28,533 nucleotides of DNA, from positions 1-28,533 of the IMG/VR virus record IMGVR_UViG_3300030382_000080. One strand, 5' to 3'. How positions within the stretch are numbered: position 1 is the first letter of the stretch; every line of letters starts with the position of its first letter. The DNA comes from a virus. This document shows positions 1,317 to 28,533 of this stretch, in pieces. Both the position numbers and the translations under genes were made by a program. Under the pieces are notes generated by a model. The model had not been told where the DNA came from. It did not search any database and saw only the letters and a program-made list of their open reading frames with translations.

Positions 1317-1352
1317 TATAAACACTAGATAAGCAAATAAAAACACGACTTT

Positions 1353-1362
1353 TCTATTATAT
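1353..1362 (+). promoter_or_regulatory. Late promoter-like motif TCTATTATAT, copy 1
   Basis: The 10-base core TCTATTATAT lies 5 bases before the ATG at 1368 and just after the terminator at 1289-1316. The same core occurs at 13976, 17066, 26642 and 27385, always before the first gene of a block. Its placement fits a promoter for the operon running from gene 1368 through portal and connector. No canonical Bacteroidetes -7 box (TAnnTTTG) is present, which suggests a non-host sigma factor. Confidence 0.65.
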
Positions 1363-1367
1363 TATAG

Positions 1368-7874: not shown

Positions 7875-7913
7875 ATTAACACCTAAATTGTTAATAACTT
7901 TGTAAATAAAGTT
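7875..7913. repeat. Two adjacent perfect inverted repeats upstream of early promoter
   Basis: ATTAAC (7875-7880) and GTTAAT (7890-7895) flank a 9-base spacer, and AACTTT (7896-7901) and AAAGTT (7908-7913) flank a 6-base spacer. The second repeat abuts the first and overlaps the -33 element at 7912-7914. This is where a repressor or activator would act, or where a replication initiator could bind. Confidence 0.5.
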
Positions 7914-7942
7914 GTGAATATCATTTTATTTTTATATCTTTG
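7912..7942 (+). promoter_or_regulatory. Early promoter of Bacteroidetes vegetative type
   Basis: TTG at 7912-7914 and TATCTTTG at 7935-7942 are separated by 20 bases, matching the known Bacteroidetes primary-sigma consensus (TTG about -33, TAnnTTTG about -7). Transcription would start near 7948-7950, about 20 bases before the ATG at 7970. This would let the host polymerase start the early genes at once. Confidence 0.8.
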
Positions 7943-9740: not shown

Positions 9741-10250
9741 ATGATAGAAGAAATCAATTTTAAGATATTATGCGACCTTACTACAAATTTAGTAGGGTTG
9801 CGTAAGGGTTCTCTTTCCTATAAAAGCAGAGAACAAAAATATCAAGTTCCAAGAGCAGTTGCAAGTGTAGTTGCTAGAATGATAGATGAAACTCATAGAA
9901 CAACAATATCTAAAGAACTTAAAAGAGATAGAAGTTTAATTTATCACTATGAGAAAATGCACGAATCTAATTATAGAACATTCCCTAAATATAGAGAGGT
10001 ATTTAATAAGGTCTATAATGCTTATAGTAACATACAGGGGTCTAAGAGAACCTTTGTAGATGATAGACAATTAGAAATATATCTAAGAGATAATGGGATT
10101 GAAACTAGCGAAAAACATCAAACTACTATTAGAGTTACATCAGGTAGAGTTTCAACTGACATTAAAGTTTCATACAAAGATTTTTATGATCAATTAGAAA
10201 AGTGTAAATTTGCACTTACTGATTGCAACTATAACTTAGAAATTATATGA
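9741..10250 (+). CDS. DnaA domain IV-like DNA-binding protein
   Basis: Residues 20-95 align by eye with the carboxy-terminal DNA-binding domain of DnaA: PRAVASVVARMIDETHRTT corresponds to the conserved PRQxAMxLxxELT helix, and KRDRSLIYHYEKM corresponds to the GRDHTTVxHAxxKI signature that reads DnaA boxes. No AAA+ ATPase part is present. The rest (about 100-169) is of unknown fold. It is likely to bind the phage origin and attract host replication proteins, or to compete with host DnaA. It lies between SSB and a helix-turn-helix initiator and overlaps the latter by 4 bases. The resemblance is seen in sequence; the role is inferred. Confidence 0.6.
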   Translation: MIEEINFKILCDLTTNLVGLRKGSLSYKSREQKYQVPRAVASVVARMIDETHRTTISKELKRDRSLIYHYEKMHESNYRTFPKYREVFNKVYNAYSNIQGSKRTFVDDRQLEIYLRDNGIETSEKHQTTIRVTSGRVSTDIKVSYKDFYDQLEKCKFALTDCNYNLEII

Positions 10251-11937: not shown

Positions 11938-12294
11938 ATGCACAAACCAATCTATTCAAGTGAAGAACACAGAACAATAATTGAAGTCTATATGGAAATG
12001 TGTAAACAGTTTGTACAAGACAGCACTACACAAACTAGAAACAACAACTATCTTGAAGTGATTGATTGTATTGTAGAATATTCAAATGGTTATGGGGAGG
12101 GGGTTAGAGAGAACAATTTTTATGATTGGATAATGATAATTCCTATTAATTTATCAGTTGCTACAAACGGATTCTTTGCAGGAATAGAAACTAAAAGTAA
12201 TGCAGCAACCATAAGAGCTTATAAAGTAGTCTTAGATCAACTGTTACAAGAAACAGTAAAGCGGTTAGATTTTGTAAATCCCAAAAATGACTGA
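11938..12294 (+). CDS. Unknown protein, 118 aa, before sigma-like gene
   Basis: A helical protein with HKPIYSSEEHRTIIEVYMEMCKQF near the start, YDWIMIIPINLSVATNGFF in the middle, and SNAATIRAYKVVLDQLLQETVKRL near the end. No family is recognised. Its end overlaps the sigma-factor-like gene by 8 bases, so the two are translated together. A TAGATTTG sequence at 11926-11933 resembles a host -7 box but has no correctly spaced -33 element. Confidence 0.5.
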   Translation: MHKPIYSSEEHRTIIEVYMEMCKQFVQDSTTQTRNNNYLEVIDCIVEYSNGYGEGVRENNFYDWIMIIPINLSVATNGFFAGIETKSNAATIRAYKVVLDQLLQETVKRLDFVNPKND

Positions 12295-12868
12295 TGTATA
12301 TAAAGAAATATCAAAGCTAAGTAATAAGTTCAGAACAATGGCTTACGGACTTACTCAGAATGAAACTGATATTGATGAAGCGGTGCAGGAGTTGATGCTT
12401 TATTTTCTTCAGATGAACCCTGACACTTTAAAGGGTATTTGGGATAAAGATGGGGAAGATGGAATAACACGTTATGGAGCAGTAGTTTTAAGAAGAAGTT
12501 TAACAAGTCCAAGAAGTCCATTCTACTATAAATATAAAAAATACTACACACATATTGACAGCAGTTGTTTCGCTACTAATTATACTAGCAGTAATGATGA
12601 TATGGCATATCGTTTTGATAATAATAACAATATATCAAACATTCCTAATGAAGCAATAGATAATTATGAATGGACTAAATTAGAGCAAATTGACAAAGTG
12701 TTAGATGGCTTAGATAGTTGGTACGACAGGGAATTATTTAAGCTCTATTATTACGAGGGCAATACACTCGACAGCCTAGCGGCTAAGACTAAAATAAGTA
12801 GAAATAGCTTATTTACAACAATAGATAAAGTAAGGGAGATTCTCAAAAAAGAATTAATAGATGAATAA
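12287..12868 (+). CDS. RNA polymerase sigma-factor-like protein
   Basis: The 193-residue protein resembles a compact sigma factor. Residues 14-42 (NKFRTMAYGLTQNETDIDEAVQELMLYFL) look like region 2, whose DIDEAVQELML mimics the DAEDLVQEVFL signature of ECF sigmas. Residues 140-190 (LDSWYDRELFKLYYYEGNTLDSLAAKTKISRNSLFTTIDKVREIL) look like region 4 with its helix-turn-helix. The linker has SLTSPRSPFYYKYKKYY and an Asn-rich loop. It likely directs host polymerase to phage promoters; the TCTATTATAT sites are candidates. Overlaps with both neighbours place it in the middle-gene operon. Sigma identity is an inference from pattern; a DNA-binding terminase-like HTH protein is the alternative. Confidence 0.65.
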   Translation: MTDVYKEISKLSNKFRTMAYGLTQNETDIDEAVQELMLYFLQMNPDTLKGIWDKDGEDGITRYGAVVLRRSLTSPRSPFYYKYKKYYTHIDSSCFATNYTSSNDDMAYRFDNNNNISNIPNEAIDNYEWTKLEQIDKVLDGLDSWYDRELFKLYYYEGNTLDSLAAKTKISRNSLFTTIDKVREILKKELIDE

Positions 12869-13262
12869 GTTTTTTGTTCCTGATGAAGTCTATGAAGAAC
12901 GGTTAGCAATATGTAAAGAATGTATTTACTATTTTAAACCCACAGGAACTTGTAAGCGGTGTTTATGTTTTATGAAAATCAAGGCACGAATAGCTCCTAT
13001 GGAATGTCCGCAGGGTTATTGGCAAAAGACTACGGAAGTAATAAAAGCACCTGATGATTTGCCACAACACTTGATAGATGAAGTCTTAGATATGTGGAAA
13101 GATTTGAAGACAGGTAGGGCAAAAGATGTTGCAGCAAAAAAACGCATGATTGAAACATATAACGCCATCTATATGAGTAATTATAGCACTACTACTAATT
13201 GCGGTTCTTGTATATCAACTTGTTTTGATGGAATAAAAAAACTATATAATAAATACAAATAA
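12861..13262 (+). CDS. Zinc-finger protein linked to sigma-like gene
   Basis: The 133-residue protein has CKECIYYFKPTGTCKRCLCF (from about residue 17) followed by MKIKARIAPMECPQGYW. The CxxC...CxxC.C...C pattern is a small zinc-binding fold known in Bacteroidetes phages. A second Cys group, NCGSCISTCFDG, lies near the end. It overlaps the sigma-like gene by 8 bases, so the two are probably made together; a transcription co-factor is one possibility. The function is not known. Confidence 0.55.
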   Translation: MNKFFVPDEVYEERLAICKECIYYFKPTGTCKRCLCFMKIKARIAPMECPQGYWQKTTEVIKAPDDLPQHLIDEVLDMWKDLKTGRAKDVAAKKRMIETYNAIYMSNYSTTTNCGSCISTCFDGIKKLYNKYK

Positions 13263-13708: not shown

Positions 13709-13959
13709 CATTATATAAATGTAAATGCGGTAAAGAGAAGGACTTATCAAAAGCAACAATAGTTTTGAAAGATGATAAGTGGGTAGCAAAGGAAGCTCAA
13801 TGCAAATGTGGGAAGTATATGGATAGTGAACCTGAAGAAGGAATGCCAAGTCTTAAAAGAACTGAAGCATCACTAAGTAAAAAAAAAAGAGGTGACAAAC
13901 TTTGGGCAGGTGCAAAAGAAAAGCTAATAGGTGAACGAGGAATCAATGAGGACTTTTAA
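13705..13959 (+). CDS. Small zinc-ribbon protein, 84 aa
   Basis: The start holds YKCKCGKEKDL and, further on, AQCKCGKYMDSEPEEG, giving two CxC(G) knuckles about 28 residues apart that could bind one zinc ion. The rest is basic (SKKKRGDKLWAGAKEKL). It is the last gene before the promoter-like motif at 13976. A nucleic-acid-binding role is plausible; function is unassigned. Confidence 0.55.
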   Translation: MTLYKCKCGKEKDLSKATIVLKDDKWVAKEAQCKCGKYMDSEPEEGMPSLKRTEASLSKKKRGDKLWAGAKEKLIGERGINEDF

Positions 13960-13975
13960 ATAAATAACAACATAT

Positions 13976-13985
13976 TCTATTATAT
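13976..13985 (+). promoter_or_regulatory. Late promoter-like motif TCTATTATAT, copy 2
   Basis: The core ends 3 bases before the ATG of the ParB-like gene at 13989. If TATTAT acts as the -10 element, the start of transcription would fall on or next to the ATG, giving a leaderless mRNA. It heads the ParB, glycosyltransferase and terminase block. Confidence 0.65.
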
Positions 13986-13988
13986 ACT

Positions 13989-14585
13989 ATGAGGCAACAA
14001 GTTAAGATCAGTAAAGTAAAGGGAAACCCTAACAATCCTAGAATAATTAAGAACGATAAGTTTAAGAAGTTAGTCAAATCAATACAAGAATTCCCTGAGA
14101 TGCTAAAGCTAAGACCAATAGTCGTAGATGAAGATATGATAGTCTTAGGTGGCAACATGAGATTGAAAGCAAGTAAAGATGCAGGATTAAAAGAAGTATG
14201 GATAGAAATAGCAGAAGGACTTACTGAAGAACAAAAGAAAGAGTTTATAGTCAAAGATAATGTAGGTTTTGGAGAATGGGATTGGGCTATGTTAGCTAAT
14301 GAATGGAATACAATTAAGATTACTGAATGGGGGTTAGATGTATGGGAAAATCAAGATGATAGAAGTCAATTAAATGCAGACGCAGAATGGGAAGGAATGC
14401 CTGAATTTAATCAAGAAGACAAAATGCCATACCGACAGATTATAGTATCTTTTAAAAATGAAGACGATATAAAGAGTTTTGCAAATCTGATGAAGCAAAA
14501 TATTACAGATAAAACTAAAAGTTTGTGGCACCCTAAAGCTGAAAAAAATATATTAAAAGACAAAGTATATATAGATGAATCCTAA
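13989..14585 (+). CDS. ParB/Srx-domain DNA-binding or nuclease-like protein
   Basis: The 198-residue protein has a ParB N-terminal-type domain at about 5-105: GNPNNPRIIKNDKFKKLVKSI, LRPIVVDEDMIVLGGNMRLKASKDAG, and IVKDNVGFGEWDWAMLANEW. GGNxRxxA is the nucleotide-binding box of this fold. The carboxy part (PYRQIIVSFKNEDDIKSFANLM...) is a module often following ParB in phage proteins. Unlike many phage homologues it has no fused methyltransferase. It precedes and overlaps the glycosyltransferase gene by 11 bases, so the two may work together on DNA, perhaps near packaging. Partitioning is unlikely in a virulent phage. Confidence 0.75.
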   Translation: MRQQVKISKVKGNPNNPRIIKNDKFKKLVKSIQEFPEMLKLRPIVVDEDMIVLGGNMRLKASKDAGLKEVWIEIAEGLTEEQKKEFIVKDNVGFGEWDWAMLANEWNTIKITEWGLDVWENQDDRSQLNADAEWEGMPEFNQEDKMPYRQIIVSFKNEDDIKSFANLMKQNITDKTKSLWHPKAEKNILKDKVYIDES

Positions 14586-15438
14586 ATATCCTTTATATAT
14601 AGTATCTAAGGGAAGAGCAGAAAGCCGATTAACAAGTAAAGCCTTAGAAAGAATGCAAGTGCCTTATTATATTGTAATTGAACAAAGCGACTACAAAGAT
14701 TATTCAGCAGTAATTGATAAAGAAAAGATTTTAATACTACCTGAAAAATATTTAGATGATTATGAAGTTCTTGATAATTTAGGCAGAAGTAAAAGTACAG
14801 GGCCAGGTGCAGCTAGAAACTTTGTATGGGAACACTCTCAGAATAATAATTTTGAATATCATTGGGTAATGGACGATAATATAACAGCTTTTTATAGACT
14901 TAATAATAATCTTAAAATAAAAGTTTTTAGTGGAGCTTTTTTTAGGGCTATGGAAGATTTTGTAGAAAGATACGAGAATGTATCAATGGCAGGACCAAAT
15001 TATGATTTTTTTGCTAAACAAAATCAAAAATTACCACCCTTTATAAAGAACACAAGAATTTATAGTTGCAACTTAATAAAGAATGATACGCCTTTTAAAT
15101 GGAGAGGTAGATATAATGAAGATACAATACTAAGTTTAGATATGCTTAAAGCAGGATATTGCACAATTCAATTTAATGCTTTTTTACAAGGTAAAGTTAA
15201 AACTCAAGTATTAAGAGGAGGGAACTCACAAGAGTTTTATGATAAAGAAGGAACTTTACCAAAAAGTCAAATGCAAGTAGATGTCCACCCTGATGTTTCT
15301 GAGTTAGTTTTTAAGTTCGGCAGAATACATCATAAAGTAGATTATAAGCCTTTTAAAAAAACAAAGCTAATTAAAAAGAAAAATATCAACATAAAAAGAA
15401 GTGTAGATAATTACGGAATGGAATTAAAGCAATTATAA
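14575..15438 (+). CDS. TET-associated-type glycosyltransferase (GREB1-like family)
   Basis: The 287-residue protein shows the family landmarks in order: YPLYIVSKGRAESRLTSKAL (5-24), GPGAARNFVWEHS (77-89), VMDDN (98-102, with D100-D101 as metal/nucleotide-sugar residues), RAMEDFVERYENVSMAG, RGRYNEDTILSL (177-188) and HPDVSELVFKFGR followed by DYKPF. This GT-A-type family, called TAGT, is known in phages to modify hydroxymethylated 5-methylcytosine made by TET/JBP enzymes. No TET/JBP or cytosine methyltransferase gene is seen here. The substrate is therefore open: host-modified DNA, another base, or a protein. It overlaps the ParB-like gene and precedes the terminase. Family assignment is strong. 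Confidence 0.8.
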   Translation: MNPKYPLYIVSKGRAESRLTSKALERMQVPYYIVIEQSDYKDYSAVIDKEKILILPEKYLDDYEVLDNLGRSKSTGPGAARNFVWEHSQNNNFEYHWVMDDNITAFYRLNNNLKIKVFSGAFFRAMEDFVERYENVSMAGPNYDFFAKQNQKLPPFIKNTRIYSCNLIKNDTPFKWRGRYNEDTILSLDMLKAGYCTIQFNAFLQGKVKTQVLRGGNSQEFYDKEGTLPKSQMQVDVHPDVSELVFKFGRIHHKVDYKPFKKTKLIKKKNINIKRSVDNYGMELKQL

Positions 15439-17004: not shown

Positions 17005-17065
17005 AATCCCTCACAAGTATATGAAAACAGGCAAAGATAACATTTTAAACTAAAAAACAATTATT

Positions 17066-17075
17066 TCTATTATAT
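17066..17075 (+). promoter_or_regulatory. Late promoter-like motif TCTATTATAT, copy 3
   Basis: The core ends 9 bases before the ATG at 17085 and lies in a 102-base gap after the terminase gene. Its flanks extend the palindrome TATTATATAATA. It heads the tail-gene block. Confidence 0.65.
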
Positions 17076-17084
17076 AATAAGACT

Positions 17085-17744
17085 ATGAAAGTAAAGATTA
17101 AGAAAGAAGGAAAGGCACAAGAGTTTAAGTTAATTGAAAGTTGGAAAGATGTAACATTAGAGAGTTATATTAAGCTAGTTCATACAAATGATGAAAGTAA
17201 GGTTGAAGCTGCTTTAGAACAAATAGATGCACTAACAGATATTCCTAAGACGTTAGTTAAACAACTAGGAGTAAAAGAAGTTGCGATTATATTAAGTAAG
17301 TTATCTGAATTACAAAAGCAAGATAGTTATTTAAAAAACATTATTTATTTAAATGGGCAAGAGTACGGTTTTCACCCTAATTTTGATGAACTAACCCTTG
17401 GTGAGTATGCTGATATTGAGATATTATTTAAGAATGACATCTACAAAAACTTGCCTGAGTTAATGGCAGTTTTATATAGACCCATCACTAGCAAGAGTGA
17501 GACTGATGATGATGATTATACTATTGAAGCGTATGATGGTAATATAAGTCGAAGGGCAGATGAATTTAAACAAATGAAAGCGAGTATGGTGCAAGGGGCG
17601 CTGCTTTTTTTTTGGAGTTTAGGGAGCGCATCGTTACTGACTTTGCCATCGTTTTTACTGGAGCTGAAGGAAGAAATAATGAAGGAAGCGATGAAAGGCA
17701 ATTCGGTGAAACCTTTGCTGAAAAGTGGAGTTGGTTCGGAGTGA
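17085..17744 (+). CDS. Tail assembly chaperone, short form (gpG-like)
   Basis: The 219-residue protein has the pattern of tail assembly chaperones of flavobacterial phages: SWKDVTLESYIKLVHT, IIYLNGQEYGFHPNFDELTLGEYADIEILF, LPELMAVLYRPI, then YTIEAYDGN and FKQMKASMVQGALLFF. The product helps tape measure folding and tail tube assembly but is absent from the virion. A T9 run at 17605-17613 lies in its last quarter, and the -1 frame stays open to 17884, giving a longer fused form. It is the first gene of the tail block, far from the tape measure gene at 24807, which is unusual. Confidence 0.75.
   Translation: MKVKIKKEGKAQEFKLIESWKDVTLESYIKLVHTNDESKVEAALEQIDALTDIPKTLVKQLGVKEVAIILSKLSELQKQDSYLKNIIYLNGQEYGFHPNFDELTLGEYADIEILFKNDIYKNLPELMAVLYRPITSKSETDDDDYTIEAYDGNISRRADEFKQMKASMVQGALLFFWSLGSASLLTLPSFLLELKEEIMKEAMKGNSVKPLLKSGVGSE
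17606..17612 (+). promoter_or_regulatory. Slippery heptamer T_TTT_TTT for -1 ribosomal frameshift
   Basis: In the frame of gene 17085 the codons read CTG CTT TTT TTT TGG, so the heptamer T TTT TTT lies in the canonical X XXY YYZ phase. A -1 slip leads to TTG GAG TTT AGG and the open frame ending at 17884. Confidence 0.7.
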
Positions 17745-17884
17745 TGTACAGATTAACAAATGGTAATATTGTAGACTTAGATAAAATAACAAAGCTTAAT
17801 CTTTTAGAATGTTTGACGTGGTTAAGTTATGAAGCTGATTTGCAAGAACAGGAAAAAACTAAAATAGAAAGGCATGGTAACTAA
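17612..17884 (+). CDS. Tail assembly chaperone, -1 frameshift extension (gpT-like)
   Basis: This 90-residue frame has no good start of its own (TTG at 17612 inside the T run) and is best read as the extension after a -1 slip, making a fusion of about 266 residues. Its segment FAEKWSWFGVMYRLTNGNIVDLDKITKLNLLECLTWLSYEADLQEQE matches the W.W...Y.LA.GDI......L.....L..L.YE.D pattern that, in related phages, ends the chaperone protein. It overlaps the next gene by 11 bases. A sequencing error in the homopolymer is the alternative explanation. Confidence 0.7.
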   Translation: MEFRERIVTDFAIVFTGAEGRNNEGSDERQFGETFAEKWSWFGVMYRLTNGNIVDLDKITKLNLLECLTWLSYEADLQEQEKTKIERHGN

Positions 17885-18419
17885 TAAAACCTATAACAAT
17901 GTAATTAATACCTTATGTAGATTAGGCGAGTATCATGAACAAATATCTACTGTTTCTGTTGGCGATATATTTGACATCAATTTGGAAAAGATGGAAAAGC
18001 TGCCGCTATTGCACATCAATCCAACATCAGTAGCAACAGGTGATTCACAACTCATATATAACTTTCAGATTTTTATTTGCGACTTGGTTTCTGAGAAAGA
18101 GGATTGGCAAACTTATCAGACTGAACAATTAACTAAATTGCTTGACACTAAAAATAATGAGCAGGAAGTATGGAATCAAACATTAGAAATAGCAACTGAT
18201 TTGATAGGAATGTTAAGACATAGTTCAAGACAATCTTTAGCAGGAGCTGATGATATTAACACCCCTATATATTTCACACAAGATCAATTTACTTTAGAGC
18301 CATTCCAAGAGAGATTTGATAATCTCTTATGTGGTTGGACTTTTACAATAGGGATTAAAGTAATGAATGACTTTGATACTTGCACAATACCTGTAACAGG
18401 GGCAGGGGCAGGGTACTAA
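17874..18419 (+). CDS. Tail completion/terminator-like protein
   Basis: The 181-residue protein has LPLLHINPTSVATGDSQLIYNFQIFICDLVSE, VWNQTLEIATDLIGMLRH and EPFQERFDNLLCGWTFTIGIKVMNDFDTC. This set (N-term helix, NP motif, NFxxxIxDL, PFxERFDNLLxGWT) is recognised from flavobacterial phage proteins resembling tail terminators, which cap the tail tube at the head end. It overlaps the chaperone extension upstream and the micro-ORF downstream. Role inferred from family and location. Confidence 0.6.
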   Translation: MVTNKTYNNVINTLCRLGEYHEQISTVSVGDIFDINLEKMEKLPLLHINPTSVATGDSQLIYNFQIFICDLVSEKEDWQTYQTEQLTKLLDTKNNEQEVWNQTLEIATDLIGMLRHSSRQSLAGADDINTPIYFTQDQFTLEPFQERFDNLLCGWTFTIGIKVMNDFDTCTIPVTGAGAGY

Positions 18420-18484
18420 TGAAATTTAAACTAGGTAAATATACAATAGAAATAGGATTTTTTAAAATAACAATAAAATTATAA
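18419..18484 (+). CDS. Candidate micro-ORF, 21 aa
   Basis: The ATG overlaps the preceding stop (TAATG) and the frame ends one base before the next ATG at 18486, filling the gap exactly. The peptide alternates hydrophobic and basic residues (start MKFKLGKYTIEIGFF). Coupling suggests translation, perhaps only to carry ribosomes to the next gene. No family is known to me. Confidence 0.35.
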   Translation: MKFKLGKYTIEIGFFKITIKL

Positions 18485-18485
18485 A

Positions 18486-18941
18486 ATGGCAAACTTAATC
18501 ACGACCTTGTCCGAGAGTGTGACCTTAAATGGTTCGGTGCGAGGTTCTTCAAACACAGTAACAACAACAGGGATAACAGATGTCTTTGAGAGAATAGTAA
18601 CTTGCATAAATGGTAATGTCACTACAATAGCAACCTTCGGAACACAACCATATAGTTCAGCAGTAGCAATAGATGTAGATAGAGCAAAGTATATCCGCAT
18701 CACTAACTTAGATGAAAATGGGTGGATAGAAGTCGGAATAGTGGGAACAGCTACGAACTATCAAGTATTACTAACTCCAGGGAACTCACATATATTATGT
18801 CAAGCAGAAGCAGTAATGTTAGCAGAAGCTGATACAGACCCAAGTTTCGGTACATTAGAAAATCTTACAGCTATTGAAGTGCAACCTGTAGGAGCTTCTT
18901 ACGATCCTAGAGTAGAAATATTTGTAGGTGTAGCTGAGTAA
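18486..18941 (+). CDS. Virion structural protein, 151 aa, beta-rich
   Basis: The protein is beta-prone and Thr/Ser-rich: LSESVTLNGSVRGSSNTVTTTGITDVFERI, then AVAIDVDRAKYIRITNLDENGWIEVGI, YQVLLTPGNSHILCQAEAVMLAEADTDP and PRVEIFVGVAE at the end. I recognise this arrangement from conserved structural proteins of marine flavobacterial phages that lie between tail completion genes. It is likely to be a virion component, perhaps of the neck or tail surface. Exact role not known. Confidence 0.6.
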   Translation: MANLITTLSESVTLNGSVRGSSNTVTTTGITDVFERIVTCINGNVTTIATFGTQPYSSAVAIDVDRAKYIRITNLDENGWIEVGIVGTATNYQVLLTPGNSHILCQAEAVMLAEADTDPSFGTLENLTAIEVQPVGASYDPRVEIFVGVAE

Positions 18942-19483
18942 TGAAAACTGAGAATTTAGAAAGATTTTTAGAGAGCTTTGGGGGCAAAGTAGTCGAACAA
19001 GCAAAGAAGCGTTTAAAACAAAAAAAAGGAAACACAGCTTTAGGTGACTCAATACGCTTTGAAGTTAAGGCTGATGTAAATGGTTTTAGCACTAAATTCT
19101 TTATGGAAGATTATGGAACTTTTTTAGACAAAGGAGTTTCAGGTAATAAGAACCCTATTTCTTATAATACAGGGACTACTATGAAGTCAAGCCCTTATAA
19201 GTACACAAGCAAAGGACCGCCAATAGATATTCTTTCTAAGTGGATAAAGAAGAAAAGGATTAAGCCTAAAGGGTTAGGACGTGGAAGATCTAAAAAGACA
19301 GGGCAATACATCTCAGCCTTTGCTTATTTAATAAGTAGAAAAATAAAAAGAGAGGGAATTAAAAGTATTAGCTTCTTTCAAATACCTTTAGGACTAGGAC
19401 TAAAAGAAGTAAAAGATAAAATGCTTAAAGAATTAAAGTTAGATATTGAAACTTATTTAACAACATATTACAATCCAAAATAA
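18941..19483 (+). CDS. HK97 gp10-like neck or tail completion protein
   Basis: A 180-residue basic protein with AKKRLKQKKGNTALGDSIRFEV, FSTKFFMEDYGTFLDKGVSG (the EDYGxFLDKGVSG motif of gp10-like proteins), PPIDILSKWIKKKRIKPKGLGRG and FAYLISRKIKREGI. gp10 family proteins join head and tail. It starts by a one-base overlap with its neighbour. The family motif is clear; the details of its place in the particle are inferred. Confidence 0.7.
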   Translation: MKTENLERFLESFGGKVVEQAKKRLKQKKGNTALGDSIRFEVKADVNGFSTKFFMEDYGTFLDKGVSGNKNPISYNTGTTMKSSPYKYTSKGPPIDILSKWIKKKRIKPKGLGRGRSKKTGQYISAFAYLISRKIKREGIKSISFFQIPLGLGLKEVKDKMLKELKLDIETYLTTYYNPK

Positions 19484-19486
19484 ATT

Positions 19487-20878
19487 ATGGCAACACTAAT
19501 AGAACAAGAACCTTTATACACTACACTACCTGTTGGGCAAGAGGTAATATTTGTAGTATCAAATAATAATGTAGTAGCACTTCAAACAAAAGTAAAGTTC
19601 ATAGCAGAAGTTTATATTAGCTCAGGGGCAGGGACTGTAATTGGGACACCTAATTTAGCAGGTAAATTTAAGACAACCCCTAATAATGAGGGAGTCGGAA
19701 TATTTAACTTTAGCAATATCGTAGAAAATTATGTTAAAGCTGATAATATGGCTGCTGATGATAGCACATATAAAGGCGCTGCGACTAATACTAATAATCC
19801 GCACTCTATTCATTTAATAGATAAATTTTCAAAAAATAAAAATGCAATTCGTTTTTTAGCTATTAGATTTTATGTTGAATACTTAGGAGCGCTAGATTGT
19901 AGTGGTAATCAAGATGCTAATGTTGTTGCAACACAATGTGGCTCACAAGTCGATACAACTGATTATACTATTTTCAATGGTTATTTAAAACAAACTAATA
20001 TTCTTACAACAGGGGCAACAAATAATAATTTTGGATATGATATAGATAAGTTTAATCTTAGTTCTGCCACAGATCAATTACTCTCAAATATGCCTACTCA
20101 ACAATATGCAAATGTTAAAGATTATGGAGTTTGCGCTTTTTTAACTCTTAATGGTGATATAGAAAGGGTAGTTGTAAAGATTTATTACCCAGGCGGAAAT
20201 TCATCACTTTATTTTTATAAAAATCATACCAATGGTGCTTATAACACTTGGACTGCTGATACTAAAAGCCAACTATTGTACTTTGGATTTTATCCTGCTA
20301 ATCTTAGACAAAATTCTACTTTCAATTCTTATATTTCTACCATGACACATTATGAGGTTTATGTGGAGTTTAGCTCTGCAATAATCAGTCAAACTTACAC
20401 AGTAAATATATTATGTCCTGATTTGATAGGCTATGATCCTATAAGACTATGTTGGCTTAATCAATGGGGGGTTTGGGACTATTACACATTTAACAAAAAA
20501 TCTACAAGGAATCTATCAACAAAAGGAACAACATATACTCAGTTACAAGGAACATGGAACGAAAGCGTTTATAGAAGCGATAGTTATAAAGGGGGCAAAA
20601 AGGCTTTTAGAATTAATGCTACTGAAAAAATAAAAATAAATACAGACTTTGTAGCTGAAGATTATAACACAATTTTTGAAGAACTAATAAATAGTCCTGA
20701 AGTTTATATATTAGAGGGCTTTCAAACAGATATAGCAAACTCATTACTTAATCAATATGTAACTCCTGTTAGGCTTACAACTTCTAATTTCACAAGAAAA
20801 ACAGTAGTTAATGATAAATTAATACAATATACATTTGACATAGAAAAGACTAAAACACTAAGAACACAATCAGTATAA
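19487..20878 (+). CDS. Tail distal/baseplate-associated protein
   Basis: The 463-residue protein starts with a beta domain (MATLIEQEPLYTTLPVGQEVIFVVSNN, VYISSGAGTVIGTPNLAGKF) and contains IRLCWLNQWGVWDYYTFNKKSTRNL at about residues 321-345, then an alpha/beta end with EELINSPEVYILEG. The WLNxWGVWDYYTF motif is known from tail-tip proteins of Bacteroidetes phages. It overlaps the 1016-residue protein by one base, a coupling expected for tail-tip partners. Role inferred. Confidence 0.55.
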   Translation: MATLIEQEPLYTTLPVGQEVIFVVSNNNVVALQTKVKFIAEVYISSGAGTVIGTPNLAGKFKTTPNNEGVGIFNFSNIVENYVKADNMAADDSTYKGAATNTNNPHSIHLIDKFSKNKNAIRFLAIRFYVEYLGALDCSGNQDANVVATQCGSQVDTTDYTIFNGYLKQTNILTTGATNNNFGYDIDKFNLSSATDQLLSNMPTQQYANVKDYGVCAFLTLNGDIERVVVKIYYPGGNSSLYFYKNHTNGAYNTWTADTKSQLLYFGFYPANLRQNSTFNSYISTMTHYEVYVEFSSAIISQTYTVNILCPDLIGYDPIRLCWLNQWGVWDYYTFNKKSTRNLSTKGTTYTQLQGTWNESVYRSDSYKGGKKAFRINATEKIKINTDFVAEDYNTIFEELINSPEVYILEGFQTDIANSLLNQYVTPVRLTTSNFTRKTVVNDKLIQYTFDIEKTKTLRTQSV

Positions 20879-23800
20879 TGAGTGTACAACTAATATTATA
20901 TCCGCAATATTATGATGGCATGTATAATTACTCAAGTTATAGTGCCAATCCTCAATTTCTTGTTAATGGACACTTCCCTCCTGCTTCACTTCCCTCTGTA
21001 GGTAGTTCCTTTACATACGGAACAACAGCAGCAAACCCATTATTAGATGCTCTTATAAATAACCCCCCATCAGTACCAAATACTTGGTATAGTTTTACAA
21101 CTACAGGCTCCCCATGGGTTAATATTGCAGTTCCTCAAGCTGTATCAGGTAATTGCTATTTTAGTGGAGCTTATGTAGGAGCAAACCCCTTTCACACAGG
21201 AATTTATCAAAAAATAACAGGACTTACCGTAGGAGCTGTCTATAAAATTATGATAGACATAACACCATATACATCACTTGGGACTTTGATGATACAGGTA
21301 CGACAAAGTAATTTAGGTTTTATGTCACAAGATAGCTATTCTATAAACGCTTCACTTACTGACATAGAAATAGACTTTACAGCAACAGGCGTAGATCACA
21401 TTATTTTGGTAGATTGGAATGGTGGGGTTGGTGCAGGATATTCCTTGACCATTGATAGTATGAAAGTAAATGCTGCAGGTTCAAATCCATTAGGAGTTTA
21501 CAACGACTTACAAGACGGACAAGTAATATGTGACTTATATGAGAATGAAGACATACCTTTAACTTTAAGTGTTGATGATTTTAAAAATGTGGCTGAAAAA
21601 GTACAATCATATTCAAAGGCGTTTAAACTTCCTGCTACAAAAAGAAACAACCAAATCTTTGATAACATTTTCGAAGTAACAAGAAGTGATACAGGACTTA
21701 ATTTTAATCCTTATGTAAGGACACAATGCGTATTAAAGCAAGATGGCTTTATTTTATTTGAAGGTTATTTAAGACTTATAGATATACAAGATAAAAAAGG
21801 AGAGATAAGCTATAATGTAAATCTTTATTCAGAAGTGGTGGCTTTAAAAGATATATTAGAGGACGCTACATTTACACAATTAGGCTTTGAGGAGTTAAAA
21901 CATACATATAATATAACACAAATTAAAAATAGTTGGGCAGGAGCAGGAATTACTTACTTAAATTCAAATACATCAGGCATAAGAGATGCAGCGACAGTAA
22001 GATATCCATTTGTAGATTGGACACACAAGTACACTTTTGATGGAAGTAACAACCCTGTATTGCCAAATTTAGAAAGTTCATTTAGACCTTTTATAAATAT
22101 AAAGTATTTAGTTGATAGAATATTTACTCAAACTGATTTTCCCTTTACATACACAAGCGCCTTTTTTGAAACTGCTGATTTTGAGAACTTATATATGGAC
22201 TTTAATTGGGGCAATGATTCAAACCCTAATGTCGTATCACTTGGGCTAACAGGTTTAAATGGTGCTACTGTTAATTCCGCTAGTTCTTTTACAAATGTAG
22301 ATTACACTAACTCAAGCGTTTTTCCTGTTGAGTTTGGTTGGGACGACAGCGCCGATAAGTTTATTATTCCTGCAGGTCAAACTAACACAAGTGTTTATTT
22401 TCTTTATGATATTAAGACTTGGGCATTATTAGATGGAACTCTAGATTTTCAATGGCTTTATACACCTTCAGGTGGTACTGCTGTTGCTATGAATCCTAGT
22501 ACACAAACGCTAAATGGAAGAGCATATATTACTTTTTTAGATGATGGGCTTTGGGGTATTGGAGCGGTTGATACTGTTACTGTTCATTATGGGGGGTATT
22601 ATAGCTCAGCTCCGACTTTGACAGTACAAGTGCAAAGCCCAGGCGGTACAGGAGCTGACGCTGTTTTAACAGCCAATGGTAGTTTCCCAGGGACGATTAC
22701 TTCTGTAACTATTGATGACGGAGGACAGAATTATCATGATTTTTCGGATAGGATTTTAATTAATGGCGAAGCGCAGGGAGACGCAATAAATACATATAGT
22801 GGCAGTTTTACGCAGCTAATGAATACAGGTGATACTATGTCGTTACAATGGAAAACAAATGTTACTGCTGCTGCACAGTTCAATAATTTGCCATCTTATA
22901 TAGATGTTGGTGGAATGCAAGGATTGGGGGACGAAGTTCCTGTTAGTGTATCAAGCACAATGTCAATTGTAGGCGAAATAACAAATGGTGTATTCACAAG
23001 CCTAAGAGGTGACTTAGAACAATGGCAATTCCTAAAAGGCTTGATGACTATGTTTAATTTAGTTAGTATTCCTGATCCTGATAATCCTACAAATATTATT
23101 ATAGAACCCTATGCAGATGTCTTTATTAATGACACTTCAAGTGGCGTAACAACTAACTTAACTTTAGCTTCAAGGGGTATTGCTCATGATTGGACTGAAA
23201 AGGTAGATTTATCCGAAATGAAACTAACACCTTTAACAGATTTGAAGAAAAAAACAATATTTAAGTTTGTTGATGATAATGACGACTACCCATTTAATAA
23301 TTACAAAATACAAGTTAATGGTCATTTATACGGAAGTCAAGTTTTTGACGCTACAGATTTTACCTTATTATCAGGAGAAGAAGAAATAGTTGCAGAGCCA
23401 TTTGCAGCAACAGTACCTAAGCCATTAATGACACAATATCCTGATTTAATAGTCCCTGCAATTTATGCGCTAGATGATGATGGGTTGACTGAAGGCTTTG
23501 AAAATGCACCTAGAATATTATACAACAATGGCGTCAAAAGTATAACGAGCTGTACTTACGAGATTCCTGACCAAAATAATGTGTCAGGTATTGCTGCTGA
23601 AGATGAAATTTTACAATTTACTCACTTATCAACTATTCCAAGTTCTTCAGCAACAACGACAGATTTTAATTTTGGAGGGTGTCCTTATCTTGGACTAGGG
23701 GCTACAGCAGTAAATAATCTTTTCACTACATATTGGTCTCCCTATTATTATCAATTATATAATGCTGACACAAGAACTATGACTATTAAAGTTAATTTAA

Positions 23801-23928
23801 GTCCTTCAGATATAAATACTTTTAAGTTTTATGATACAGTAATGATTAAGAACCGACAATTTCGAGTAAATAAAATTGATTACAAACCAAACGACTTAGC
23901 AACCGTTGAATTTATACTTATACCATAA
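20878..23928 (+). CDS. Large tail/baseplate protein with carbohydrate-module-like N-terminus
   Basis: This is the largest protein in the window at 1016 residues. Residues 18-200 look like a jelly-roll carbohydrate-binding module (FHTGIYQKITGLTVGAVYKIMIDITPYT, LTDIEIDFTATGVDHIILVDWNG). Residues 220-360 hold the conserved core (DIPLTLSVDDFKNVAEKVQSYSKAFKLPATKRN, KQDGFILFEGYLRLIDIQDKKGEISYNVNLYSEVVALKDILED). Residues 560-640 have glycine-rich beta repeats like those of gene 1368. The end (LKKKTIFKFVDDNDDYPFNNYK onward) resembles a baseplate hub region. It is likely to form the tail tip and help contact host glycans. The general class is secure; detail is inferred. Confidence 0.6.
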   Translation: MSVQLILYPQYYDGMYNYSSYSANPQFLVNGHFPPASLPSVGSSFTYGTTAANPLLDALINNPPSVPNTWYSFTTTGSPWVNIAVPQAVSGNCYFSGAYVGANPFHTGIYQKITGLTVGAVYKIMIDITPYTSLGTLMIQVRQSNLGFMSQDSYSINASLTDIEIDFTATGVDHIILVDWNGGVGAGYSLTIDSMKVNAAGSNPLGVYNDLQDGQVICDLYENEDIPLTLSVDDFKNVAEKVQSYSKAFKLPATKRNNQIFDNIFEVTRSDTGLNFNPYVRTQCVLKQDGFILFEGYLRLIDIQDKKGEISYNVNLYSEVVALKDILEDATFTQLGFEELKHTYNITQIKNSWAGAGITYLNSNTSGIRDAATVRYPFVDWTHKYTFDGSNNPVLPNLESSFRPFINIKYLVDRIFTQTDFPFTYTSAFFETADFENLYMDFNWGNDSNPNVVSLGLTGLNGATVNSASSFTNVDYTNSSVFPVEFGWDDSADKFIIPAGQTNTSVYFLYDIKTWALLDGTLDFQWLYTPSGGTAVAMNPSTQTLNGRAYITFLDDGLWGIGAVDTVTVHYGGYYSSAPTLTVQVQSPGGTGADAVLTANGSFPGTITSVTIDDGGQNYHDFSDRILINGEAQGDAINTYSGSFTQLMNTGDTMSLQWKTNVTAAAQFNNLPSYIDVGGMQGLGDEVPVSVSSTMSIVGEITNGVFTSLRGDLEQWQFLKGLMTMFNLVSIPDPDNPTNIIIEPYADVFINDTSSGVTTNLTLASRGIAHDWTEKVDLSEMKLTPLTDLKKKTIFKFVDDNDDYPFNNYKIQVNGHLYGSQVFDATDFTLLSGEEEIVAEPFAATVPKPLMTQYPDLIVPAIYALDDDGLTEGFENAPRILYNNGVKSITSCTYEIPDQNNVSGIAAEDEILQFTHLSTIPSSSATTTDFNFGGCPYLGLGATAVNNLFTTYWSPYYYQLYNADTRTMTIKVNLSPSDINTFKFYDTVMIKNRQFRVNKIDYKPNDLATVEFILIP

Positions 23929-24785
23929 TGGCAACAGTACCCTATAGAAAAGGCTATACAATAGCCCCTTATGAAATATCCGCTCTTGGAATTGTAACAT
24001 TTACTGATGGCACAAATACAGGCATAATACCTAACCAAGTACAATGTGAAGCCTATGGATATACTTATGACGAAGAGCAGAGAGTTTGTAGAGCGCAAAC
24101 TTTTACGCCTAAAATATCTAAGGCGATGGACAATGTTAATAATACTATAAGAGGTAATAACAATGACTTAGGAATGGGAATAAATAATAGTATAGTTGTT
24201 GGCGAGAACAACAGTATTAAAGGTATATCAAGAAACAATATTGTAGTAGGTAATGCAAATGAAATTGTAAAAGGGATAAATAACTCAGTTGTATTAGGGA
24301 CTTTAGGAGAAGTAACAACAGAAAACTCTATAGTCTTAGGAGCAAATAACACAGCTAGTGATATTTTAGGGGAAAGGCAAAGTATTCAATTAATATATGG
24401 AAGACAAACAACTGACAATAGTACAGTTGATGCTTATTTAAACAATACTTCAGGTAGTTATTTTGAAGTGCCTGAAGATAGTGCTATTTATTTTCAATCA
24501 GAAACTTTAGCACTTAGAGTAGGTGGAACAGCAGGTGGAAGTGTAGGTGATTTTAAGTCTTGGGTTGAAAGGGGAGTAGTGCTTAATGTAGGCGGAACAC
24601 TTAGTATAGATAGATCAAGAACCTCACCTGCTAGTTCAGGAACAACAACAGGGTGGAGTCCTATTAACTCAGTATCAGGAAGTAATTTTTTACAAACAGT
24701 AAAAGGGGCAACAAATATGACAATATCTTGGGTAAGTAATATAAGAATAACACAAATGAAACCAAGAGGGGGGTTTCCTTCTTAG
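23928..24785 (+). CDS. YadA-head-like tail fibre/receptor-binding protein
   Basis: The 285-residue protein has residues 75-145 made of YadA-head-type beta-roll repeats (NNSIVVGENNSIKG, NNIVVGNANEIVKG, NNSVVLGTLGEV, ENSIVLGANNTA). In trimeric autotransporter adhesins these repeats form a compact left-handed beta roll. The start (MATVPYRKGYTIAPYE) and the end (GTTTGWSPINSVSGSNF...) probably give attachment and tip domains. It lies between the large tail protein and the tape measure gene. A trimeric tail fibre that binds the receptor is the best reading. Confidence 0.7.
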   Translation: MATVPYRKGYTIAPYEISALGIVTFTDGTNTGIIPNQVQCEAYGYTYDEEQRVCRAQTFTPKISKAMDNVNNTIRGNNNDLGMGINNSIVVGENNSIKGISRNNIVVGNANEIVKGINNSVVLGTLGEVTTENSIVLGANNTASDILGERQSIQLIYGRQTTDNSTVDAYLNNTSGSYFEVPEDSAIYFQSETLALRVGGTAGGSVGDFKSWVERGVVLNVGGTLSIDRSRTSPASSGTTTGWSPINSVSGSNFLQTVKGATNMTISWVSNIRITQMKPRGGFPS

Positions 24786-24806
24786 GAATACTATAAAATA
24801 AACGAC

Positions 24807-26618
24807 ATGGCAGAAGTATTAGAATTAGAAGTAAAATCAAATATAGGCGAAGCAACATCAGATGCAAAGGGGTTAGCTAGTGAGTTTCAATTCATGGGGG
24901 TTTCTTTAAATTCTCTTAATGCAGGTTTTGCATCAATGGCAAAAGTTGCGAAGGCTTCTTTTGCAACTGTTAGGGCAGGAATGATTAGCACAGGAATTGG
25001 AGCATTAGTTGTGGGTATTGGAAGTTTAGTCGCTTGGTTTACAAAAACTAAAAAAGGAGCAGAAGCCTTAACAAGAGTATTCACAGGAATAAGTGCAGCA
25101 GTTAATGTTATAGTTGATAGAATCTCAAAATTTGGAGGCGCTATTGCTAAGTTGTTTAGTGGAGATGTCAAAGGTGCTTTTAATGAGATGAAAGGTACTC
25201 TTTCAGGGATAGGCGATGAAATGGTAAGGGAGATACAATTAGCAGTTGAATTAGAAGCTCAATTACAAGGCTTAGTAGATAGAGAACGAGATTTGAATGT
25301 TGAAACAGCACAACGTAGAGCAGAGATTGAGGAATTAAAAATGGTTGCTGAAGATGTTACCAAGTCTGAAGAAGAAAGATTAGACGCAGCAGAAAGGGCT
25401 TTTGAAATAGAGAATAATCTTTTACAAGCTAGAGTAGCAAACGCTGAAGAGGCAGTACGAATACAACAGCAGCAAATGGAACTGTCTGAAAATATGGCTG
25501 CTGACTTAGATGAACTAGCTCAGAAAGAAATAGCTCTTGCTACTATAAGACAAGAAAGTGCAACAAAACAAATTGAATTAAATAATAAAATCAATGCTAT
25601 AAAAGCTCAAACTGAAGCAAAAGAAAAGGCGGCTTATCAAAGATGGGTACAAAGAGAAAATTCAAGAATAGCTAAACAGAACCAAACTGTTATATCATTT
25701 AATAAAATGCGTAGGGAAGAAGCTTTAAAGACTTTGACGAGTGACAGGGCAAGAGAAATAACACAAGCTAATTGGAAAAGAGATGAAAGAGAGAAGCTAA
25801 TTATGGACACAGTTAGGAAAGGTAAGTTAAGAGATAAACTGATAGCTGAGAATTTTACTTTTCACCAAATGGAGTTAGATAGAATTGAAGATAAATGGGA
25901 GGATATTCGTGAAGAAAATAGGAAGAAAAAAGCTGCTGATTTATTAGCTATTCAAAATGAAACAATTGTAATGGAAATTGAGAACGAAAGAATGAAGGCT
26001 GATAAGCTATTGGAAATACAAAAAGAGTTAGAGTTAAAAGAAGTTGAGGGAAGAACTGATACCGAAGTGCTTAAAGCAGCTATTGAGGATAAATATAGAG
26101 CAATCCATAAAAAGAAAGATGATAAGAGAGCAAAAGAAGACAAAGATAGAGATGACGCAGTCAATAAACATAAAGAACAAGCCTTTATGAATGTATTAGG
26201 GGCAGTAGGAGCTTTAGCAGGAGAAAATAGCGCATTAGGGAAGGGGGTTGCAGCAGCACAAATTGTATATAATACTCAGCAAGGAATTATGGCAGCTATG
26301 GGAGCAACTTCGGTTGCTGATAAATTATTACCATACCCTGTAAGACTTGCAAACGCAATTGCAACAGGAGTGATGGGAGCAATAGCCTTAAAGAAGGTTA
26401 TGTCTACTGATCCTATGGGTGGTGGTGCGTCAGCAGGTGGTGGTGGTGGTGGGGCAGTATCAGCAGGAGCAACAGCACCGTCAAGTCAAATGATGTCAGG
26501 AACTTTTGATATAAGCGGAGGGGAAGCCCCTGAAGCTATGAGAGCTTACGTTGTAACTGATGAAATGTCTAACAGTCAGAATCAATTAGCTAATATAAGA
26601 CGTAGAGCAACAATTTAA
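24807..26618 (+). CDS. Tail tape measure protein
   Basis: The 603-residue protein has a hydrophobic segment at about 59-79 (MISTGIGALVVGIGSLVAWF), a long coiled coil (about 140-460, many E/K/Q/R heptads), then a second hydrophobic part (about 465-535) and a Gly/Ala/Ser-rich stretch (GGGASAGGGGGG), ending with AYVVTDEMSNSQNQLANIRRRATI. This is the layout of tape measure proteins, which set tail length. By the usual rule of about 0.15 nm per residue it predicts a tail near 90 nm. It follows the fibre gene by 21 bases. Confidence 0.8.
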   Translation: MAEVLELEVKSNIGEATSDAKGLASEFQFMGVSLNSLNAGFASMAKVAKASFATVRAGMISTGIGALVVGIGSLVAWFTKTKKGAEALTRVFTGISAAVNVIVDRISKFGGAIAKLFSGDVKGAFNEMKGTLSGIGDEMVREIQLAVELEAQLQGLVDRERDLNVETAQRRAEIEELKMVAEDVTKSEEERLDAAERAFEIENNLLQARVANAEEAVRIQQQQMELSENMAADLDELAQKEIALATIRQESATKQIELNNKINAIKAQTEAKEKAAYQRWVQRENSRIAKQNQTVISFNKMRREEALKTLTSDRAREITQANWKRDEREKLIMDTVRKGKLRDKLIAENFTFHQMELDRIEDKWEDIREENRKKKAADLLAIQNETIVMEIENERMKADKLLEIQKELELKEVEGRTDTEVLKAAIEDKYRAIHKKKDDKRAKEDKDRDDAVNKHKEQAFMNVLGAVGALAGENSALGKGVAAAQIVYNTQQGIMAAMGATSVADKLLPYPVRLANAIATGVMGAIALKKVMSTDPMGGGASAGGGGGGAVSAGATAPSSQMMSGTFDISGGEAPEAMRAYVVTDEMSNSQNQLANIRRRATI

Positions 26619-26641
26619 AAATCAAATAAATATTAATTAAA

Positions 26642-26651
26642 TCTATTATAT
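26642..26651 (+). promoter_or_regulatory. Late promoter-like motif TCTATTATAT, copy 4
   Basis: The core ends 3 bases before the protease ATG at 26655, in the 36-base gap after the tape measure gene. As with copy 2, a -10-like reading predicts a leaderless mRNA. The protein's conserved start (MPCEQCENG) argues that the ATG is genuine. Confidence 0.65.
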
Positions 26652-26654
26652 AAT

Positions 26655-27377
26655 ATGCCTTGTGAACAATGTGAAAACGGAAAAGTAAAATGGGGAAAGA
26701 CAGGAAGCTGTGAATACGATTCAATAGCTGAATGCGAAGAAGCCAATAAAGACTATTACGAAAAAACTACATCTATTACTTCAATTGTAGAATTGGTAAT
26801 TGATGATGAAAGCCAAGAGTTGGCAATTGATGCGATAAGCCTTGTGTCAGCACCTGCCATAGAAGAAGATATGGTGTTTTTTGGGAAAGAGAAAAACAAC
26901 TTGACTTTTGCTAAAGTAGATAAAGAAAAGCGTATGCTAGTTTCACCTGCTTTAATCCCTAATAAAAATATTTTCAGATATGATCCAAATACGGATTCAG
27001 AATACTATGTCTATTTTAGCCCTGAAACCGTAAGAAAGGCTAGTGAATTATACTTAAAACATAATAATCATCATAAAGCTACTTATGAACATCAAGACAG
27101 AGTATCAGGAGTATTGACTGTTGAATCTTGGATTAAAGAAGGTGATATGGATAAGTCAAAACTTTATGGCTATAACTTGCCTAATGGCACTTGGTTTGTG
27201 AAAATGCGGATAGACAATGATGAACTATGGTCTAAGATCAAGGACGGTGAACTTAAAGGACTATCCATTGAAGGATATTTCACTAATAAGTTTGAAGCTA
27301 TGCAGCAAAAACAAGCAACAACAGAAGAAATACTATCAGCTCTTAATGAGATAATAAGAGAAAATCAAATAAAGTAA
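26655..27377 (+). CDS. XkdF-like prohead serine protease
   Basis: The 240-residue protein begins with a CxxC-bearing knuckle (PCEQCENGKVKW...C) and holds the protease core from about residue 45: AIDAISLVSAPAIEEDMVFF, SPALIPNKNIFRYDP, KATYEHQDRVSGVLTVESWI with likely catalytic H146, and GELKGLSIEGYF with likely catalytic S204. This matches the XkdF-like phage serine protease family, which cleaves scaffold and capsid proteins during head maturation. The scaffold and capsid genes follow directly. Confidence 0.8.
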   Translation: MPCEQCENGKVKWGKTGSCEYDSIAECEEANKDYYEKTTSITSIVELVIDDESQELAIDAISLVSAPAIEEDMVFFGKEKNNLTFAKVDKEKRMLVSPALIPNKNIFRYDPNTDSEYYVYFSPETVRKASELYLKHNNHHKATYEHQDRVSGVLTVESWIKEGDMDKSKLYGYNLPNGTWFVKMRIDNDELWSKIKDGELKGLSIEGYFTNKFEAMQQKQATTEEILSALNEIIRENQIK

Positions 27378-27384
27378 TAACTAT

Positions 27385-27394
27385 TCTATTATAT
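27385..27394 (+). promoter_or_regulatory. Late promoter-like motif TCTATTATAT, copy 5
   Basis: The core lies 22 bases before the scaffold ATG at 27417, leaving room for a short A-rich leader (CCTAAAAAAGAAACT). This would drive the scaffold, capsid and tail-tube genes, ending at the terminator at 1289-1316 on the circle. Confidence 0.65.
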
Positions 27395-27416
27395 AACAGA
27401 ACCTAAAAAAGAAACT

Positions 27417-28119: not shown

Positions 28120-28533
28120 ATGGCATTTAGTGTAACATCAAATTTCGCAGGGAAAGCAGCAGGATTTTATATCGCCGCGGCTTTAAAAGAAGCGAAAAGT
28201 TTAGACTACTTAACGCAAATAAATAATGTGCGTTATAAGTCTAACATTCAATCAATGGCGAACGCAAATATGGTAAGGAATGCAGAATGCGACTTTACTG
28301 ATTATGGAACTCTCACAATGACTGAGAAGGTACTCGAAGTAAAACCGCTACAAATCAATATTGATTTATGTAAGCAAAATTTAGTTTCAAGCTGGGAATC
28401 GCTTGAGATGTCAGGAGCTTATGGCAACCCACCAGCTTCATTTGAAGATTATGTAATCTCTTACATGGGTGGTATTATTGCTGACCAAGTAGAAACTGAT
28501 ATATGGCAGGGGAATGATGGAAATGGAGAATTA
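28120..28533 (+). CDS. Major capsid protein, N-terminal part (3' end cut by window edge)
   Basis: An open frame of 138 codons runs from the ATG at 28120 to the last base without a stop, starting MAFSVTSNFAGKAAGFYIAA. Its last 31 residues repeat the first 31 residues of the frame at the window start except for Tyr versus Phe. It has the A-rich AAAAATTATGG leader and follows the scaffold gene, as expected for the capsid gene. The rest is at 1-614. The 95-base overlap makes one 310-residue protein if the genome is circular. Confidence 0.85.
   Translation, partial: MAFSVTSNFAGKAAGFYIAAALKEAKSLDYLTQINNVRYKSNIQSMANANMVRNAECDFTDYGTLTMTEKVLEVKPLQINIDLCKQNLVSSWESLEMSGAYGNPPASFEDYVISYMGGIIADQVETDIWQGNDGNGEL
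28439..28533. repeat. Right copy of 95-base terminal near-duplication
   Basis: This matches bases 1-95 in exact register with four substitutions, described at the left copy. The match runs precisely to the last base, which fits an assembly overlap better than an internal gene duplication. Confidence 0.9.

Follow-up and report, generated by a model that had tools for sequence, protein, structure and literature searches.

The window, by which we mean the whole 28,533-base virus record, carries all of its main genes on the plus strand. The early and middle genes lie between 7.9 and 13.96 kb and include those for a DnaD-like replication protein, NinG and the sigma-like protein that is the subject of this analysis (Table 1). 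The late genes run from 13.99 kb round to ~7 kb and encode ParB-like, glycosyltransferase and terminase proteins, the tail proteins and tape measure, the protease and capsid proteins, and the portal protein with the genes that follow it. Because both ends of the record (positions 1-100 and 28430-28533) repeat the same stretch of ~95 nt, which lies in the major capsid gene and differs at several positions between the two copies, this nominally linear record probably represents an almost complete genome in circularly permuted form, assembled from a population with sequence variation. It probably derives from a small marine phage with a Bacteroidota host. A search of genome contigs gave only two matches (L160, PAPR01000004.1, and L161, PBGL02000003.1), in MAGs named Pseudooceanicola and Euryarchaeota; these contigs of the phage group are most likely binning errors and therefore give no direct proof of the host.

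Table 1. Predicted features of the sigma locus and of the late promoters in the window (all positions on the record; late-promoter targets are on the plus strand).
Feature	Position	Strand	Elements and remarks	Target
Host-type early promoter (Bacteroidota primary-sigma-like)	7912..7942	+	TTG-N20-TATCTTTG	heads early/middle block encoding sigma
Predicted phage sigma factor, 193 aa, two-domain (sigma2 + sigma4), ECF-like	12287..12868	+	ATG at 12287, stop ends at 12868	
sigma2 domain, residues ~1-78	12287..12520	+	DIDEAVQELMLYF segment, equivalent to region 2.1/2.2 DDLVQE	
sigma4 domain, residues ~126-191	12662..12859	+	helix-turn-helix LDSLAAKTKISRNSLFTTIDKVREIL	
Zinc-ribbon protein (DUF6171, phrog_13558)	12861..13262	+	overlaps sigma ORF by 8 nt	
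Late promoter 1	1335..1366	+	-35-like AAATAAAA (1335-1342), -10-like TCTATTATAT (1353-1362); PWM 25.4	ORF with ATG at 1368; late block with portal gene 3082
Late promoter 2	13958..13989	+	-35-like AAATAAAT (13958-13965), -10-like TCTATTATAT (13976-13985); PWM 32.3	ATG 13989; ParB-like, glycosyltransferase, terminase small and large subunits
Late promoter 3	17047..17079	+	-35-like AAACTAAA (17047-17054), -10-like TCTATTATAT (17066-17075); PWM 34.6	ATG 17085; tail gene block 17085-26618
Late promoter 4	26624..26655	+	-35-like AAATAAAT (26624-26631), -10-like TCTATTATAT (26642-26651); PWM 29.7	ATG 26655; head maturation protease, Peptidase_S78_2
Late promoter 5	27367..27398	+	-35-like AAATAAAG (27367-27374), -10-like TCTATTATAT (27385-27394); PWM 23.1	ATG 27417; possible scaffold, then major capsid gene

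Sequence families and predicted fold of the sigma protein

A preliminary description of this DNA, made from the letters alone, had called the protein sigma-factor-like, with segments resembling regions 2 and 4, and both sequence families and structural models agree with that identification. Taken alone, the window protein scores below the Pfam gathering cut-offs, and against PHROG it matches two transcription families, phrog_36 at 3.5e-6 and phrog_1740, "RNA polymerase sigma factor", at 0.003. A tblastn search for the sigma protein in annotated phages gave nothing significant, and a profile of the close family searched against PDB sequences returned no sigma factor, only chance matches to coiled-coil and designed proteins. 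Because the family has diverged too far to be placed by direct sequence search, the case rests on intermediate homologues and on folds.

The family comprises at least 528 confirmed relatives in IMG/VR. Among 65 aligned relatives, Sigma70_r4 is matched by 28 and Sigma70_r4_2 by 18, with E values down to 2.8e-6, and phrog_1740, the PHROG sigma-factor family, by 44. Diverged homologues are encoded by the cultured Nonlabens (Persicivirga) phages P12024S (gp33) and P12024L (gp35) of the genus Inhavirus, in each case a few genes upstream of the large terminase gene, as in the window; P12024S differs in its larger genome (35.7 kb), its shorter sigma protein (159 aa) and the lack of a zinc-ribbon partner. 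The GenBank annotation of gp33 reads "containing Sigma-70 region 2", and gp33 passes the Pfam Sigma70_r2 cut-off, as do the homologues at loci L165 and L209. In a profile comparison the N-terminus of gp33 aligns with the window family at E = 3e-4, and an iterated HMM seeded with gp33 alone recovers that family, one ORF per locus, at 217 loci.

AlphaFold models built from a close and from a diverse alignment have pLDDT values of 70 and 75, respectively, with the sigma2 part of the latter at ~90 (~87-93 across residues 1-70), and the models place their helices in the sigma2 and sigma4 arrangement, joined by a disordered linker. In Foldseek searches both models match ECF sigma factors best (SigL, SigH, sigmaE, AlgU, SigW), alongside other sigmas, and among the PDB matches listed the top-ranked are sigma factors, many of them ECF. 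The sigma2 domain of SigR (1h3l) fits over 69 aa at 1.9 Å and sigma4 structures fit over ~53-63 aa at 1.2-2.1 Å, within a range of 1.2-2.6 Å for single domains of the models against ECF and other sigmas. The whole-model rmsd is large (pTM ~0.42-0.44), since the models do not fix how the two domains lie relative to each other. The 193-residue chain has no region 3 element, and its low-pLDDT linker of ~40-48 aa stays below the 50-residue limit for ECF factors. Sigma-70 region 2 is thus recognized through the Sigma70_r2 matches of the homologues and the structural match to 1h3l, and the region 4 helix-turn-helix through the Pfam matches and the sigma4 structures. Neither Pfam nor Foldseek, the latter run on both models, gave a confident match to a non-sigma family, and it is near certain that the ORF encodes a sigma factor.

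The zinc-ribbon ORF that follows does overlap the sigma gene, as had been noted; the accompanying suggestion that it assists sigma found no support. Throughout the window's subclade it is kept next to sigma (a match at 173 loci), and it has no match to a known anti-sigma factor in Pfam or PHROG. Because P12024S carries an unrelated ORF in its place, with a 65-aa product devoid of cysteines, the zinc ribbon is at most accessory.

The probable bipartite late promoter

The preliminary description had also pointed to the repeat TCTATTATAT as a promoter motif. The repeat is real, with exactly five copies in the window, all on the plus strand, but it is only half of a bipartite promoter whose -35-like upstream element had been missed. 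As a 10-mer alone it is modestly enriched, the window holding 18 matches with one mismatch where 8.5 are expected, or about twofold. Aligned copies in relatives reveal the second element, AA[AC]TAAAT, at -18 to -11 from the first T, and conserved flanks, with TT before the repeat and A, T and A after it, giving a late promoter of the form AA[AC]TAAA-N10-TTTCTATTATATAnTA.

A 34-column position weight matrix (PWM) of the bipartite motif, trained only on the loci of other phages with the window excluded, finds exactly five sites in the window, all on the plus strand, with scores of 23.1-34.6, and 300 dinucleotide shuffles of the window produced no score above 20 (best, 18.4). Each of the five sites heads a late gene block (packaging, head or tail), and the early/middle block of the window contains none. 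The -35-like element reads AAAT in four of the five sites and AAAC in the remaining one.

The same placement recurs in the relatives. At 159 family loci we count 211 forward versus 5 reverse matches above a PWM score of 14, and 208 versus 0 above 16. With overlapping loci counted as fetched, 237 matches fall in 864 kb downstream of the sigma gene, against 1 in 629 kb upstream of and through it, where upstream denotes the 5 kb leading into the gene. Late promoter 3 is conserved before the homologous post-terminase gene in all 52 relatives compared and late promoter 2 before the homologous ParB-like gene in 70 of 76, so that a shared, conserved promoter heads the late units, as is characteristic of phage late sigma factors of the phiEco32 gp36 type. 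Motif-free family-A contigs longer than 7 kb were considered as exceptions and set aside, most of them extending no farther than sigma.

Co-occurrence and co-divergence of sigma and promoter

Two selections made independently of the sigma gene bear on its association with the motif. When phages were picked by the P12024S terminase, the sigma gene was present in 34/34 loci having more than 3 kb upstream of the terminase, and in 122/122 counting all loci; L197, L216 and L229, examined as sigma-less candidates, have less than 3 kb of upstream sequence. With the DNA motif as the sole criterion for picking contigs out of 2.9 million viral ones, all 111 loci obtained belonged to the same clade and carried its terminase or neighbouring genes. 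The sigma gene is visible in 42 of these, and the remainder appear to end before it, so that phages with the motif and lacking the gene, which would have counted against the preliminary description, were not found among the 111. Two motif-bearing contigs, L307 and L327, end just short of the expected sigma position and are most likely incomplete, because their relative L346 has the same genes after its sigma gene. In these three contigs the interval between sigma and terminase is an insertion hot spot, with tandem DNA methyltransferases among the inserted genes.

The cultured phages extend this comparison to a diverged promoter. TCTATTATAT is absent from P12024S and P12024L, and P12024S, where the best plus-strand score of the window PWM is 6.2, was considered as a counter-example until inspection of the gene starts revealed a collinear variant promoter. 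In both phages this promoter reads TAAAACAAA-N13-15-CGTTAAT and lies just upstream of late-gene ATGs. Seven late/structural genes of P12024S are preceded by [T]AAAACAAA-N13-15-CGTTAAT(AT), ending 3-6 nt before the ATG, and one copy, before gene 1, is degenerate. The -10-like element thus differs (CGTTAAT versus CTATTAT in the window), whereas the architecture before late genes is shared. We found no paper on the promoters or regulon of P12024S/L. Other clades have the cores [CT]GTTTAT, CGTTATAT and related forms, which keep the same register with respect to the ATG. On a maximum-likelihood sigma tree of 112 rows, with long branches and with 47 rows bearing no motif label, the four promoter classes require 3 changes, the minimum for four states. 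Sequence comparison thus suggests that factor and promoter changed together between phage lineages, which supports direct recognition; like the co-occurrence, this falls short of proof, because whole phages of one clade share ancestry.

Alternatively, a different phage factor might read the motif, be it the HTH/DnaA_C-like protein encoded at 9741, the ParB-like protein or an activator working with the host sigma, with the sigma-like protein working at other sites or serving as an anti-sigma factor or appropriator. An association within one clade points to sigma no more than to other early genes that may be just as well conserved, and the 9741 protein does have a weak DnaA_C helix-turn-helix match. 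However, the bipartite architecture and its spacing suit a -35/-10 pair of the sigma type, the P12024 form, with AAAC and CGTT, agrees specifically with the ECF consensus, and the 193-aa protein retains both DNA-binding domains. We consider a different reader unlikely, and very likely the sigma factor itself recognizes the bipartite late promoters.

Proposed late switch and relation to known sigma factors

We propose, with high confidence in the explanation as a whole, that the window encodes a compact ECF-like alternative sigma factor that redirects the host polymerase to dedicated late promoters. An early-to-late cascade had been anticipated in the preliminary description; the host-type promoter does precede the sigma block and the motif occurs only at late blocks. 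The position of sigma in an early/middle block ahead of the late ones stands, with the refinement that the cascade runs from early, at the host-type promoter, to late. TTG-N20-TAnnTTTG is a Bacteroidota promoter type, and the relatives show an enrichment of similar sites 4-6 kb ahead of sigma; these host-type promoters therefore also point to a Bacteroidota host. In the proposed sequence of events, host RNA polymerase would transcribe the early/middle operon from this promoter, yielding the sigma factor, which would bind the host core RNA polymerase and direct it to the five bipartite late promoters. There, sigma4 would contact the -35-like AA[AC]TAAA and sigma2 the -10-like CTATTATAT, switching on the late units for packaging, tail, protease, scaffold/capsid and portal. 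The sigma fold, the motif and its placement, the mutual co-occurrence, and the co-divergence of sigma and promoter were computed directly, and we infer the binding to core, the recognition of the promoters, the sites where transcription starts and the timing.

In phiEco32, the usual distance from the -10 element to the transcription start is 6-8 nt (PMC4281155). The motif ends no more than 5 nt before the ATG in 54% of distinct promoters, usually 3-5 nt, and by analogy transcription would begin at or beside the AUG, with the consequence that many late mRNAs may be leaderless or nearly so. The same proximity, together with the fact that translation in Bacteroidota does not rely on Shine-Dalgarno sequences, might instead mark the motif as a translation or RNA-processing signal upstream of start codons. 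Yet it stands at only 5 of the ~43 window genes, all of them block heads, it includes a conserved upstream element at a fixed distance, and a sizeable class of sites has its ATG 31-35 nt away, so that the motif can stand apart from the start codon; we regard such a signal as very improbable and retain the promoter reading.

Enterobacteriaceae phages offer a parallel in phiEco32 (gp36), 7-11 and SU10, where an ECF-type sigma takes host RNA polymerase to few strongly conserved promoters, as proposed here. The phiEco32 type pairs an ECF phage sigma with a small conserved promoter set whose motif consists of one -10-like element, tAATGTATAtA, lying 6-8 nt ahead of the start, and which serves middle genes too (PMC4281155, PMC4331800); for the inhibition of sigma70 the phage has a further small protein, called gp73 in PMC4281155. 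In contrast, the window promoter is bipartite, precedes late genes only and belongs to a different phage lineage. T4 gp55, another sigma-like phage protein, likewise serves late genes through an AT-rich -10 element, and reportedly lacks a canonical sigma4, using T4 gp33 and the sliding clamp; the window protein adds a sigma4 domain and a -35-like element.

With bacterial ECF factors (SigW, SigR, sigmaE, and SigL and SigH of Mtb) the window protein shares the combination of sigma2 and sigma4 without region 3. Further hallmarks of ECF factors are promoters with AAC at -35 and CGT at -10, a linker of fewer than 50 residues, a co-transcribed cognate anti-sigma factor and positive autoregulation (PMC8103513). 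The AAC/CGT pattern is seen in P12024S/L (AAAAC...CGTTAAT), whereas the window has AA[AC]TAAA and CTATTAT. Unlike bacterial ECFs, the window sigma has no adjacent recognizable anti-sigma factor and no autoregulatory promoter, and would act as a viral late switch that is not signal-gated. It appears not to be autoregulated, in contrast to typical ECFs, because no motif lies near the sigma operon, with none in the early/middle block of the window and 1 match in 629 kb upstream of and through sigma in the relatives. We use the label "ECF-like", and assign the protein to no named ECF group, because the structural hallmark is present, the promoter hallmark is clear only in the cultured relatives and autoregulation fails. 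That the protein is instead a non-sigma helix-turn-helix regulator (YlxM/UPF0122-like or Mga-like) merely resembling region 4, as the best single Pfam matches of some members (UPF0122, Mga) might suggest, is hardly credible, since the helix-turn-helix is common to UPF0122 and sigma4, making such matches expected, and the N-terminal domain is homologous to proteins passing Sigma70_r2 and models as sigma2.

Phage-encoded sigma factors are already known, few of them with defined regulons, and in the open-access literature we found no defined sigma regulon for a Bacteroidota phage. Here one can see the sigma factor, its promoter and a late regulon predicted in full, both in a 28-kb genome and in over 500 uncultured relatives and two cultured phages; the homologues in cultured phages make the prediction testable now, in Nonlabens phage P12024S. 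The natural pairs of sigma and promoter (CTATTAT, CGTTAAT, GTTTAT, CGTTATAT) form a series that constitutes a data set on the reading of the -10 element by sigma2, and they are a possible source of orthogonal Bacteroidota promoters. For a marine phage group that is large and mostly uncultured, the sigma gene and motif also provide a simple marker together with temporal gene classes. More tentatively, these phages may form a widespread clade of small, probably Bacteroidota-infecting members with a non-autoregulated ECF-derived sigma and leaderless structural operons, in which sigma and -10 element have drifted together in at least four pairs.

In the second class of late promoters, where the ATG follows after 31-35 nt (e.g., L006:5049-5110), the leader contains GATTGAATAATCAATC, in which a small hairpin starts just past the presumed transcription start. 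This 5' hairpin is only weakly better than in shuffles (z = -1.6) and is possibly a 5' stabilizer. Lastly, the late terminase operon of the window encodes a TET-associated glycosyltransferase (TAGT, 14575-15438; Pfam PF20691, E = 1e-42), beside which no TET-like oxygenase was noticed in the window; the early region of P12024L encodes a 2OG-Fe(II) oxygenase and a similar glycosyltransferase.
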